Shown piece after piece: positions 8,044 through 64,000 of a DNA stretch of 64,000 nucleotides. Origin of the DNA: Alloprevotella sp. oral taxon 473 str. F0040 (GTDB taxonomy: Bacteria > Bacteroidota > Bacteroidia > Bacteroidales > Bacteroidaceae); the NCBI RefSeq assembly GCF_000318095.2, contig NZ_KB290717.1, positions 518,838 through 582,837 on the forward strand, given 5' to 3'. Under the pieces are notes generated by a model, which searched no databases, had not been told where the DNA came from, and saw only the letters and a list, made by a program, of their open reading frames with translations. The translations under genes were made by a program, and so were the position numbers. Position 1 is the stretch's first letter. Each line of letters begins with the position of its first letter.

Positions 8044-8176
8044 CAATAAAAATTGGAGATACGCGAAAGTTGGCTTCAAAAACACATCATTGACCAGCAA
8101 ACCAAGCTGTTCGTTCACTGGGTATGCCCTTATGGGGAAGCCATTCCCAATGATTTCCAAGTGATGCTCACCAAAG

Positions 8177-8289
8177 TTCCGACAGTTACAACAAAAATCT
8201 CCGAGACTTTCAAAGAAATCTCCGAGAGTTTCTAGAAAAAGTCCGAGAATTGAAAGAAAATCTCCGAGAGTTTGCAAGGAAAGTCCCAG
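8177..8289. repeat. 21-bp phased repeat array A
   Basis: Six degenerate copies of a motif near TCTCCGAG start at 8177, 8198, 8219, 8240, 8261 and 8282, exactly 21 bases apart. The copies read TTCCGACA, TCTCCGAG, TCTCCGAG, AGTCCGAG, TCTCCGAG and AGTCCCAG. Between them are A- and T-rich linkers of variable sequence. All copies are in the same orientation, so no terminator hairpin forms here, unlike the related arrays at 37016, 47215 and 62648. It lies between the divergent ileS and SprB-like genes. Confidence 0.75.
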
Positions 8290-8376
8290 TATTCTAAAGA
8301 AAAATATCCAAACTAACAGCAAATCCGCTCATCATATTATGTAATTAAGATTCCTCAAAACTCGAGCAGTACGGTC

Positions 8377-11714: not shown

Positions 11715-11730
11715 TCCATTAGTTGAAAAA

Positions 11731-12157
11731 AGCAGTTGAGCGATAAGCCGGGTTTTGTGCCTCGTCCTAAAAAAGAAAGACAAGGTGTCCGTCATTTATC
11801 TGGATGCACTGTCGCCAGTGCACTCTATCGTTCTACCCTCTGATGTGTGCCCGAAAGCACTCGGACGAGCCGCCCTAATGACACCAGTTTACATGAACTT
11901 TCAACTTCCGAGGTGCACAGCTCGTATGTCACCATACGACTGGTGGGCTCTTACCCCACCTTCTCACCCTTACCCCCAGCTCCACTGCGACATGACTGCC
12001 GAAGACCTTGCGACCAAATGCGGAACACGAGGCGGTTGTTTTCTTCTGCACGGATTCACTCTCACGAATGACTTCCCATTAAGAAGCGGAATGCTCTATG
12101 TTGCCCGGACTTTCCTCGTTTGCCACGAAAGCAAAAGCGACGGACTGCCCAACTGCT
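11731..12157 (-). ncRNA. rnpB: RNase P RNA (class A, Bacteroidetes type)
   Basis: This is the catalytic RNA of ribonuclease P, which matures tRNA 5' ends. On the minus strand the universally conserved 5' region reads GAGGAAAGTCCGGGCAAC (within 12097-12119), and the 3' conserved region reads ACAAAACCCGGCTTATC (within 11741-11758). The terminal P1 helix is closed by AGCAGTTG at the 5' end and CAACTGCT at the 3' end, which fixes the boundaries. The length of about 427 nt is normal. It has its own promoter at 12176-12183 and a terminator hairpin immediately downstream, so it is a free-standing transcript opposite in direction to its neighbours. Confidence 0.97.
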
Positions 12158-36961: not shown

Positions 36962-37015
36962 GTCTACCCTCTTGCCTTCTCAGACATTGATATAAACAAT
37001 GGAGGTTCTATAAAA

Positions 37016-37107
37016 GCTCCAACTATCCTCCATAACTCTCCCATATAAATTGGAAAATCTCCCATGTTTTACTGAAAACGTGGGAGATTTTTGCATTTTG
37101 CTCCGAC
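37016..37107. repeat. 21-bp phased repeat array D, with terminator
   Basis: Motif copies start at 37016 (GCTCCAAC), 37037 (TCTCCCAT), 37058 (TCTCCCAT), 37079 (CGTGGGAG, reverse core) and 37100 (GCTCCGAC), each 21 bases apart. Arms AAAATCTCCCATG (from 37054) and CGTGGGAGATTTT (to 37091) form a bidirectional terminator stem with one G-U pair, just after the C10 protease gene. Confidence 0.7.
37054..37092 (+). terminator. Terminator of the C10 protease gene
   Basis: A 17-bp stem (37054-37070 with 37075-37091, one G-U pair) with a four-base loop; the right arm ends in T's. It lies inside the phased repeat array. Confidence 0.8.
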
Positions 37108-37183
37108 AAGTTTTCTAGCATATCGTTTGCCGGAATAGCACCGTTTACATCTCTTTACAATTCTCTCTTTTTATCCTTCCTTC

Positions 37184-37471
37184 CTCGCGCGCGCGTACGT
37201 AACAGGAATTTTGACCTTTTTGCTTTCACAACCTTCACAGATTTCATTGTAACACACTATCACACAAACGCTTATAGTCACCTTTCGGACATTTTTTAAG
37301 AATTGGCAAAAAATCAAGGTATTCAGAATGGAAATCTCTACGTTGAACTTCTCCAAGCTACAAGAGCGTCTAAGAAAACTTGTCACATGCAACGGCTCGT
37401 TTATGTGAAGGTTGTGAAAGCAAAAATGCAAAGTTGCTAGGGAATGCACGCGCGTCACGCGTACGCGCGAG
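37184..37471. repeat. Perfect 23-bp inverted repeat with alternating CG/TA flanks (MITE-like or regulatory)
   Basis: Inner arms 37217-37239 and 37404-37426 are perfect 23-bp inverted repeats with the core GCTTTCACAACCTTCACA, separated by 164 bases. Outside them, 37184-37199 (CTCGCGCGCGCGTACG) and about 37460-37471 (CGTACGCGCGAG) are also complementary with a four-base insertion. The outer tracts are alternating purine-pyrimidine (37186-37201 and 37456-37469) and could adopt Z-DNA. The 164-base interior and the flanks encode nothing I can support. No target-site duplication is visible. Confidence 0.75.
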
Positions 37472-37948
37472 AAACCGTACTCCTTTTGCCACACAATACA
37501 GCAACACCAGGTGAAAGATATAGGTGAACAAGCACTTTTTGATTTCGCTGCTCACCAGCTCTTTATAATTAGATGTTTTTTGAACCTTCACCGTTGACAT
37601 CTCTACACCACAAAAAGAGCGGTTTCAGTGATTTTCTCCTCAAAAGTTGAGCATTTTTCATTCTTTTAAGGCTGATTTTCTCACTTTCGGTGCATTGCTA
37701 CCCATATCTATAGAGGGAGTGCAGCTCATGAAGCACGCAAATCATTGCTTGTCGCAACACCTTCCTTGCACACCCCACCCATAATCTACTAGACAAAAAC
37801 ACAAGTTTCCGTATCCTCCAGCTGTCAAATCGTTAAATTTTCACCTTTCACCGCATTTTTCTTGAAAAAGATTTGGTACTCTCAAAAGAAACTCAGACAT
37901 TCGCAGTGTAACACGACACTATTACACCAAAACACAGGAATTACTCCT
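37472..37948. other. Noncoding DNA with repeated TTCACC/GGTGAA motifs
   Basis: About 480 bases without a supported gene. The motif GGTGAA or its complement TTCACC recurs: GGTGAAAGATATAGGTGAAC (about 37510-37529), AACCTTCACCGTTG (about 37583), and TTTTCACCTTTCACCGC (about 37838-37854). The inverted-repeat arms nearby also contain TTCACA/TGTGAA. These could be binding sites or remnants of a repeat family. Confidence 0.45.
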
Positions 37949-47139: not shown

Positions 47140-47214
47140 AGGATAAACAATGCAATCTCTTTAGCATGAAATGACACAAAGTCACACTAGGACCATAAGA
47201 ACAGATCTTCCCTT

Positions 47215-47307
47215 TCTCGGAGAATTAAGTAACAAATCTCCGAGGTTAGTATGAAAATCTCCTACTTTTTTCAGATAATCTCCGAGTTTTCAATAGAAAT
47301 CTCGGAG
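47215..47307. repeat. 21-bp phased repeat array B, with terminator
   Basis: Copies start at 47215 (TCTCGGAG), 47237 (TCTCCGAG), 47258 (TCTCCTAC), 47279 (TCTCCGAG) and 47300 (TCTCGGAG); spacings are 22, 21, 21 and 21 bases. First and last are in reverse-core form, so the last two form a hairpin. The sequence to 47501 otherwise holds a -7 box and no gene. Confidence 0.75.
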
Positions 47308-47316
47308 ATTTTTTTT
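47277..47316 (+). terminator. Terminator of the efflux operon
   Basis: Arms AATCTCCGAG (47277-47286) and CTCGGAGATT (47301-47310) pair perfectly with a 14-base loop and are followed by a T run. The stem is formed from two repeat units of array B. Confidence 0.8.
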
Positions 47317-62560: not shown

Positions 62561-62647
62561 TTCGAGCAACTCTTCTAGAAGAAAGATTATAGTAAGATAG
62601 AAATCTAGGTCTCTATTGTTCTTTGACTATCGACTCTTCTGGAAAAA

Positions 62648-62741
62648 AGTCCGAGATTTTCCCAAAAAAGTCGGAGAAGTTCTAAGAAATCTCCGACTTT
62701 TTAACTATAACTCTCCGACTTTTTCATCATATATCTCGGAG
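62648..62741. repeat. 21-bp phased repeat array C, with terminator
   Basis: Copies start at 62648 (AGTCCGAG), 62669 (AGTCGGAG), 62690 (TCTCCGAC), 62712 (TCTCCGAC) and 62734 (TCTCGGAG); spacings are 21, 21, 22 and 22 bases. Cores occur in both orientations. Each core is followed by a T-rich linker such as CTTTTTAAC, giving phased A/T tracts. It lies between the polysaccharide operon and the cas3 gene. Confidence 0.75.
62665..62702 (+). terminator. Terminator of the polysaccharide operon
   Basis: Arms AAAAAGTCGGAGA (62665-62677) and TCTCCGACTTTTT (62690-62702) pair perfectly with a 12-base loop and a T run on the plus strand. The A run on the other side gives activity for the minus strand too. 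Confidence 0.85.
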
Positions 62742-62848
62742 TTTTTAGAAAACCCATGAATTCTGTGGCTAATACTCTAGGCTATTGTTTTAATCATCAT
62801 GTAGTATAATTGCCTAAACCACGGAACTACCTAAAAAGCTAATTCACT

Positions 62849-62927: not shown

Positions 62928-64000
62928 TTAACTGATGAGCGGAGCATCAGCATAGGGATTATCCCACCGAACACCAAGAGCAGCATCATATCCATCAAGA
63001 TCTAACATACAGAGTTCGCGCTGTGTGCCAGGATCTAACACAATCTTTTCCACCCATCCTGCAGCAAGCAAAGTATTATATTGACGATGACTCACTCCGA
63101 TGCGATAAGGCTGAAGTTGTCGCAACACATGACGAGAAAGAAAAGCACGATGATGCTGCAAACTATCAATGAGCGGTAACAATGATTCATCCTTCAAGAT
63201 AATTTCTACCTGGTCTTGCTCATCAATGATTTTGAAATCCTTGCTAGCACTTTCAAAATCGAACTGCCAACTTTCTGCATAATCTGCTCGCCAAAGTCTA
63301 GCAGCAATGCCATGTGCATCAAAAGTTTTGATACGTTTGAAGAAACGCTCATAGTATTGTTGAATATAATCCAAGTGGCTCTCACTATAAGTTGCACCCG
63401 TGGCATGGATTAAATCTTGAGTGGCATAGACCGCCTCTTTGCGATCGCCTTGTAGTTGACCACCTTCTATAAGATCTACTACAAAAACTTCTCCGCGTTC
63501 TGCACGTTTACCCTCTCGATTGCATCGACCTCCAGCTTGAATGATTCCATCTAACCCTGTCTTAGTTCGATATACTACAGGAAAATCCAAATCTACCCCA
63601 GCCTCAATGAGTGGCGTACTCACGACTAAGGTGGGAATTTCTTGCGCCATTCGTTCTCGAATAGCTGTGATTGCCGTCTTCAAATGCGATGAACACATAT
63701 TGCGAGACAGATGCAATAGCTGTTCTGGAGGGCATCCTTGCTCCAGCAATTCTAAATACAACATTGCAGCCTCTTTTCGAGTATTCACAACACACAAGCC
63801 TGAAGTGTGCTGCTTTAAACGCATAGCTATTTCTGCATAGGTCAATGATATAGGTTTTAGATGATAATGTACTCTCTCGAAAGGAGCTACCATTTCAGCT
63901 GTTATATCCACTATCGGGGATAGCCTATGTTGGAGCGCATAAAAATCTTTCACATGCTTGAAGGGACTGTTGTGATTCCGATCGAAAGAAGGCAAAGTTG
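62928..64000 (-). CDS. cas3: CRISPR-associated helicase/nuclease Cas3, C-terminal part (continues beyond the window)
   Basis: The frame is open to the window edge (its first codons, TTGCCTTCT, are not a real start), so only the last about 357 residues are seen. They contain the second helicase domain: SGLCVVNTRKEAA (motif IV region), VSTPLIEAGVDLDFPVVYR (motif V) and IIQAGGRCNREGKRAERGEVFVVD (motif VI, with the Arg finger), followed by the C-terminal extension of Cas3. The NTRKEA and QAGGRCNREG patterns resemble type I-C Cas3. The stop is followed by 46 bases and a hairpin, with no cas5, cas8 or cas7 gene downstream. If the system is complete, the rest must lie to the right, in an order that is unusual for type I-C. 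Confidence 0.9.
   Translation of the reverse strand, partial: TLPSFDRNHNSPFKHVKDFYALQHRLSPIVDITAEMVAPFERVHYHLKPISLTYAEIAMRLKQHTSGLCVVNTRKEAAMLYLELLEQGCPPEQLLHLSRNMCSSHLKTAITAIRERMAQEIPTLVVSTPLIEAGVDLDFPVVYRTKTGLDGIIQAGGRCNREGKRAERGEVFVVDLIEGGQLQGDRKEAVYATQDLIHATGATYSESHLDYIQQYYERFFKRIKTFDAHGIAARLWRADYAESWQFDFESASKDFKIIDEQDQVEIILKDESLLPLIDSLQHHRAFLSRHVLRQLQPYRIGVSHRQYNTLLAAGWVEKIVLDPGTQRELCMLDLDGYDAALGVRWDNPYADAPLIS

Follow-up and report, generated by a model that had tools for sequence, protein, structure and literature searches.

Why should a short motif return every 21 bp, six times over, in the gap between two genes? The question is raised by positions 8,177 to 8,289 of the 64,000-nucleotide stretch of Alloprevotella sp. 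oral taxon 473 str. F0040 DNA analysed here (the window), where a first-pass annotation had seen six copies of a core [T/G]CTCC[G/C]A at an exact 21-bp period and suggested a protein-binding or curved-DNA element. A symmetric profile places seven units at 8148..8296 (array A, no strand assigned; centres 8158, 8180, 8202, 8223, 8244, 8265 and 8286). The array is real, but its gaps are 22, 22, 21, 21, 21 and 21, and the exact period holds only from 8202 onward. Its first two units and its last are weak (scores 4.0, 4.8 and 5.5), the remainder scoring 10.6-13.6. The proposed core needed redrawing: TCTCCGA is present in three of the six copies (8198, 8219, 8261), TTCCGAC, AGTCCGA and AGTCCCA open the other three, and TCTC(C/G)GAGA with A-rich and T-rich arms fits better. 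The host gap is divergent, between ileS (minus strand, start 7994) and a 907-aa ORF (8801, plus strand).

Related arrays had also been reported near 37016, 47215 and 62648, and the profile recovers all three, with centres spanning 37020-37104, 47219-47304 and 62652-62738. Array B (37010..37114, no strand; five units centred at 37020, 37041, 37062, 37083 and 37104) has CCC/GGG core variants, is the weakest of the three and sits 66 bp left of an inverted-repeat (IR) element; the syntenic site in a sister species (G033) also has an array. Array C (47209..47314, no strand; five units centred at 47219, 47241, 47262, 47283 and 47304) occupies the gap between a TolC-like gene and nagB, and its syntenic array in G033 is weaker (30.3 vs 62.0). 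Array D (62642..62748, no strand; five units centred at 62652, 62673, 62694, 62716 and 62738) is flanked by convergent genes and likewise has an array at the syntenic G033 site. To its right, an ORF on the minus strand at 62928-63998 leaves the window and gives weak matches, below cut-offs, to Cas3 helicase models. A search of the window for three TCSGA cores at exact 21-bp steps gives three hits, and 100 dinucleotide shuffles give none. The refuting outcomes named in the first-pass annotation, as many such runs in shuffled DNA or no arrays elsewhere in the genome, did not occur. At gathering thresholds, Rfam models matched no array in the window, the sole match being a class A bacterial RNase P RNA at 11728-12156 on the minus strand. 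Plasmids and phages gave no match to window positions 8140-8310 at E <= 0.01; the triple pattern does occur in viral contigs, in 16 stretches.

How far does the family extend? The arrays were said to be repeated around the genome, and they are: 91 were found in the 1.64 Mb examined of this genome (G000) and 36 in 0.80 Mb of G033, most stretches having been picked around arrays, with C17, part of C16 and G033 530-790 kb as unselected sequence. Contig C17 (673 kb) has 28 arrays with scores above 30, against a best score of 29.3 in 10 dinucleotide shuffles; the cut-off used later, 28, was exceeded in 2 of those 10. Independently of the trained profile, TCTCCGA-N14..17-TCCGA matches G000 105 times and its reversed control once. 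Across 61 genomes, 37 of them from the genus including G000 itself, this two-core pattern is abundant only in G000 (105), G033 (36) and G013 (26), hence in 3 of the 37 genus genomes, and every other genome has at most 6. The TCTCCGAG cores of G013, the third genus member, are 21 bp apart with differing linkers. An order-wide scan of 393 genomes matched 12, with 40 matches in G000 and no more than 8 in any other, some matches being heptamer satellites and some genomes matching the reversed control alone (up to 12). Scanning named genomes for the core, without a reversed control, returned at least 116 stretches; many of those listed are coding repeats or 7- or 11-bp satellites, and the core alone is therefore no mark of the family.

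The unit consensus is roughly AAAAnTCTC(C/G)GAGAnTTTT, a near-palindrome composed of an A-rich arm, TCTC-S-GAGA (S = C or G) and a T-rich arm, as described by a profile that is symmetric by imposition and was trained on the same genome, which biases it toward the real data. Individual units are often asymmetric at positions +-3, where C,G is found in 248, G,G in 147, C,C in 133 and G,C in 37 (n = 657). The orientation of the central C/G, judged by eye, follows no pattern with strand or replichore. Adjacent units are separated by 21 bp in 217 of 267 pairs, by 22 in 48 and by 20 in 2, with a detector that scans gaps of 20-23 and favours 21-22. Because of that preference, strong single units were also picked without regard to spacing (420 units; C17 and part of C16). 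These lie 21 (54), 22 (9) and 42 (39) bp apart and, at longer distances, 43 (10), 63 (18) and 64 (7); within 5-32 bp, the sole value besides 21 and 22 is one pair at 11. The two-helical-turn spacing proposed at first sight is thus upheld, and the linkers are, as suspected, not conserved: those of neighbouring units are only slightly more alike (0.479, s.e. 0.011) than those of different arrays (0.434). In unselected sequence, arrays contain 3 to 8 good units, most commonly 4 or 5 (39 arrays).

Intergenic positions account for 81 of the 89 G000 arrays that could be classified (2 of the 91 have no called neighbour) and 34 of 36 in G033, the others (8/89 and 2/36) overlapping called genes. In tandem gaps, the median distance from the preceding stop codon is 219 bp in G000 and 123 bp in G033. 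Could the arrays derive from coding sequence, as pieces or relics of genes that encode seven-residue repeats? Translation of seven of the eight in-gene G000 arrays gives mostly such repeats, each marked by S-[D/E] or G-[D/E], but the intergenic majority and the frequent 22-bp gaps make this origin extremely unlikely. One in-gene array, C10a_0 in G000, resembles a miscalled gene start, and two others (L223, L225), with scores of only about 30, are close to the chance limit. Genes containing an array in frame include an MBL-fold gene (L354, L355) and genes on L223, L225, L228 and G000 C17:152738-154007. Most genus relatives match the MBL-fold gene in two pieces with the middle segment absent. 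In an alignment for which 30 loci were taken (L356, whose ORF motif was not matched, was left out), the repeat-bearing loop is found in G000 and G033 with different unit numbers and in none of 27 other genus proteins; the MBL-fold proteins of L357, L358 and L361 have a shorter loop of unrelated sequence.

Are the arrays maintained between species? Syntenic sites were identified in G033 for 26 of the 91 G000 arrays, with an array present at 21, weak at 3 and absent at 2; the other 65 have no syntenic site in the G033 sequence examined, most stretches of which were picked for arrays. Where sequence was unselected in both species (C17 vs G033 530-790 kb), the array is kept at three of five sites and absent at two. 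Array A lies outside the 26: no counterpart stands beside ileS in G033 (stretch 54-74 kb), a weak two-unit match lying 5 kb away. Substitutions were compared with a neutral simulation run through the same detector, with substitutions only and no indels, using 18 pairs from the 26 sites after setting aside long gaps, an array inside a gene and a pair that aligned poorly. The T/A pair at -2/+2 mismatches in 3 of 176 cells versus 12.3% in the simulation (p = 2.8e-7). Base context does not explain this, since the mismatch rate is 16.8% for T-in-TC and A-in-GA in the flanks, and 4 of 20 cells mismatch for lone TCNGA. In the arms, positions 7 and 8 mismatch at 13% vs 21% simulated (p 0.007 and 0.009, with eleven positions tested), core positions 0, +-1 and +-3 change no slower than neutral, and position +-4 changes faster (29% vs 19%). 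Flanks mismatch at 20%; raw identity, before allowing for the choice of good units, is 87% in the core and 80% in the flanks. Against the neutral simulation, the T/A pair at -2/+2 is the sole strongly conserved feature.

What might the arrays do? Our tentative answer, drawn from sequence comparison and given slightly less than an even chance, is that they are dispersed strips of helically phased sites for a putative DNA-binding protein. Two-turn spacing, variable linkers and a conserved +-2 pair are compatible with a protein that sits on the same helical face at every unit and touches the next. Retention of arrays at 21 of the 26 syntenic sites, and similar cores with different linkers in G013 and in two metagenome-assembled genomes (below), also speak for it. 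The binder would be sequence-specific and probably dimeric, and the arrays would be strips of operator-like sites, in which successive rough palindromic units of ~21 bp lie on the same side of the helix. Bound proteins could touch their neighbours and build a short cooperative filament of about 100 bp. The arrays also spread as a dispersed repeat, mostly into intergenic targets, gaining or losing units and occasionally being copied in frame into genes, 21 bp being seven codons. What the sequences show directly is the family with its spacing and positions, its partial orthology, its dispersal and the conserved T/A pair; we infer the protein, its cooperativity and any effect on the chromosome or on genes. 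For a recognition site, it is odd that position +-4 should change faster than neutral and positions 0, +-1 and +-3 no slower. The asymmetry at +-3, the copying of arrays, the restriction to three of 37 genus genomes, retention at only three of five unselected sites and the lack of conservation of array A also count against a protein-coated strip. Two-turn sites at dozens of places in one genome would provide a handle on the putative protein, with array DNA as bait.

Might the same palindromes act as RNA, facing units pairing into 3' UTR stem-loops or transcription terminators? Stems that lead into T-runs are present in arrays B, C and D (best energies -23.2, -18.9 and -16.7), array A has a stem of -13.9 on the minus strand, and the A/T arms within a unit are slightly over-complementary (ratios 1.05-1.16 at +-5 to +-9). 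The arrays also favour convergent gaps (18 vs 13.8 expected in G000, 11 vs 5.3 in G033) and avoid divergent ones such as that of array A (11 vs 17.0 and 2 vs 6.3), counts given without a significance test. However, mirror pairs across linkers are complementary no more than expected (ratios 0.55-1.01; 1.0-1.1 for neighbouring outer arms), mean terminator energies of -8.4 to -9.7 kcal/mol are nearly equal across strands and gene contexts, divergent gaps included, and array A RNA folds no better than its shuffles (z = -0.71). Overall, the arrays lack what an intrinsic terminator would show, a stem with its T-run in the orientation of the upstream gene, though B and C singly would qualify. Despite the good stems in B, C and D, covariation, context, strand and folding disfavour hairpins as a general role, which we consider unlikely. 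Curvature through phased A/T tracts, the other possibility raised by the first-pass annotation, can appeal to A-rich and T-rich arms recurring every 21 bp and to values slightly above shuffles (mean z 0.86, 85 arrays). Strong curvature, though, was not borne out: in a wedge model, the mean ratio is 1.089, hardly different from the 1.067 of other intergenic DNA (2474 105-mers), whereas a control of phased A-tracts gives 1.83, and we regard this explanation as very improbable.

A selfish or neutral minisatellite, spreading as or with a MITE-like element in the manner of BrickBuilt and having no host function, is the close rival, quite possible if appreciably short of an even chance. Its strict period would be inherited through copying and the gain and loss of whole units. 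Copying there has been: between loci, the best array pairs score 124 bits (92% over 88 bp) and five simulated sets of independent units at most 69, from which it follows that some arrays were copied from others. Several syntenic sites differ in length between the species by about 21, 41 or 85 bp, and gain and loss of whole units is also attributed to BrickBuilt in the part of its description used here (PMC4596501). Homology between arrays of different loci extends in some cases over 80-100 bp, and neighbouring units point the same way in 143 cases vs 71, which indicates that the regular spacing is partly inherited by copying. The initial suggestion that the period is under selection accordingly stands only in part, resting on the kept spacing and the conserved +-2 pair. 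That pair is also what a host-neutral repeat explains poorly, as is the constancy of the 21-22 bp gaps between units whose linkers have diverged almost as far as linkers from separate arrays. Besides the IR element, no common leader or tail was recognised among 25 of 431 flank matches. The family, then, spreads as a repeat and, as a site, conserves at least one feature. If it were selfish DNA only, it would still be an unusually regular dispersed minisatellite, found also in frame within protein genes. One G033 array (C6:485,050-485,161) has some identical units, as if recently tandem-duplicated. Elsewhere (L237 12482-14235, G000 C14), about 1.5 kb is extra relative to G033 beside an array shared with it; an ORF in the extra segment may encode a Fic-family protein.

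The IR element accompanies some of the arrays. Its copy beside array B has a left arm at 37179..37300 (plus strand) and a right arm at 37396..37500 (minus strand) and folds strongly as single-stranded DNA (z = -4.2). Counting arm pairs less than 450 bp apart (four unpaired arms in G000 were viewed separately), all 34 examined have an array inside or within 316 bp: in G000, the array is inside 10 of 23 and within 217 bp of the other 13, and in G033, 11 of 11 have one inside or within the 316 bp. Unselected elements have a nearby array in 7 of 7 cases in G000 and 4 of 4 in G033, some shared by descent; the chance that a random 300-bp intergenic stretch is equally near an array is 28% and 26%, respectively. 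From the side of the arrays, 58 are on pieces carrying an IR arm, and 24 of these have an arm within 300 bp; 500 random sets average 10.0, with a maximum of 21. In unselected G000 sequence, 8 of 39 arrays are that near vs a mean of 3.5, with 7 of 500 sets reaching 8. This proximity beyond chance, like the arrays inside the element, favours spread with a mobile partner, but 67 of the 91 G000 arrays lack an IR arm closer than 300 bp. At G000 C17:653,849-670,846, about 17 kb is apparently inserted within an IR right arm, with an array 80 bp from that arm; the first two ORFs of the insert may encode tyrosine recombinases.

Where does the IR element lie on the chromosome? Its exact arm 18-mer is found in G000 (56) and G033 (63) only, of 41 genus genomes. 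The 63 copies in G033 represent 40 loci, all at C6:436.8-2055.0 kb, a 1.62-Mb arc of 2763 kb; for random loci, the probability of an empty arc that large is about 3.5e-8. One degenerate copy lies outside the arc, near 2549.6 kb. By the two-core pattern, G033 array loci are evenly spread, 12 of 27 lying outside the IR-occupied arc vs 11.2 expected. The occupied arc includes dnaA, at 1082 kb. In the stretches examined, GC skew changes around there from predominantly negative to predominantly positive values, too irregularly to place the G033 origin. In G000, C17:1-556,058, C2 and C6 contain no exact IR copy and C5 contains one, and these pieces (0.95 Mb) map by array orthology mostly to the empty arc of G033; the exception is C17 at about 400-556 kb, whose G033 counterpart, at about 440-568 kb, is inside the occupied arc. 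A comparable pattern appears in the portion of a paper that covers Noc and SlmA, whose palindromic sites are scattered over the chromosome and, for Noc, largely missing from the terminus region (PMC4331003). As with Noc sites, the IR element is largely missing from one arc, and the arrays are palindromic and scattered like Noc and SlmA sites; unlike these, which that portion presents as discrete sites of known proteins, the arrays stand all round the chromosome (PMC4331003). Arrays and IR element may conceivably be two parts of an undescribed Bacteroidales chromosome-organising system, in which a putative protein would coat two-turn arrays all round the chromosome and the array-sited IR element would mark the dnaA-bearing part, as Noc sites spare the terminus, with the core TCTCCGAGA kept across lineages and linkers and the 21- or 22-bp period specific to each; we judge this improbable. 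If the arrays were protein strips and the IR element truly confined to the dnaA part, they would offer a sequence-defined entry to chromosome organisation in this group.

Has anything similar been described? Titles and abstract openings, with subscription journals mostly beyond reach, held no description of such 21-bp arrays. REPs are 20-40 bp palindromes usually regarded as stem-loops. Like the arrays, REP and BIME elements form short palindromic units in small intergenic arrays, according to the section of the source consulted (PMC3733652). The present arrays differ from them, so far as that section goes, in strict two-turn spacing and in showing no excess pairing between units, with a slight A/T excess within the unit. 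The nearest described system is BrickBuilt of Porphyromonas gingivalis, which the arrays resemble without being members of its family. In the part of the report available, BrickBuilt consists of 23-nt units without spacers, in 1 to 22.8 copies at 19 loci, between a leader and a tail with IS5-like TIRs; it is strictly intergenic, probably spreads as, or with, a MITE-like element, and gains and loses whole units (PMC4596501). By that partial account, the two share dispersed intergenic tandem arrays, a unit of about two helical turns, whole-unit gain and loss, a link to an inverted-repeat element and confinement to a few related species (PMC4596501). In contrast to the 23-nt unit, ours measures 21-22 bp and its linkers diverge; the arrays mostly contain 3-7 good units, they number 91 in 1.64 Mb, and, unlike the strictly intergenic BrickBuilt, some lie in called genes in both G000 (8/89) and G033 (2/36). 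The BrickBuilt TIR form GAGACCTTTGCA, as given in Table 2 of its report, matches the window 6 times with at most 2 mismatches vs 6.86 expected, one match falling within array B. Because unit length, copy number, the tested TIR form and strict intergenic position do not agree, we class the arrays as BrickBuilt-like rather than as members. Rickettsia palindromic elements, in the excerpt cited, are about 150 bp long, encode a conserved peptide and occur in frame in protein genes (PMC10969869). The arrays share with them an in-frame occurrence, in the MBL-fold gene of G000 and G033, but differ from what the excerpt describes in having a 21-bp unit lattice, a mostly intergenic location and peptides that share only S-[D/E] or G-[D/E] per seven residues.

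Beyond the genus, arrays with the same core and linkers of their own appear in two metagenome-assembled genomes. In Prevotella RGIG1607, TCTCCGA arrays with the core TCTCCGAGA occupy 12 loci among the matches listed (L049, L050, L058, L062, L071, L076, L086, L115, L121, L124, L132 and L149, the last measured on a neighbouring GTCGGA array), and 40 of 40 gaps are 22 bp. In Tannerellaceae Cf509_bin38, TCTCCGA arrays occupy six loci among the matches listed (L098, L102, L110, L122, L129 and L159), some with two alternating linkers, and 28 of 30 gaps are 21 bp. Both genomes came out of a search built on this core at 21-22 bp, and the core they share thus partly reflects how they were sought. Other 21-bp TCTCCGA arrays, with unrelated linkers, are seen among the matches listed in distant bacteria: Planctomycetaceae Kf353_bin127 (L072, L157), Burkholderiaceae bacterium 26 (L063) and Flaviaesturariibacter (L147).
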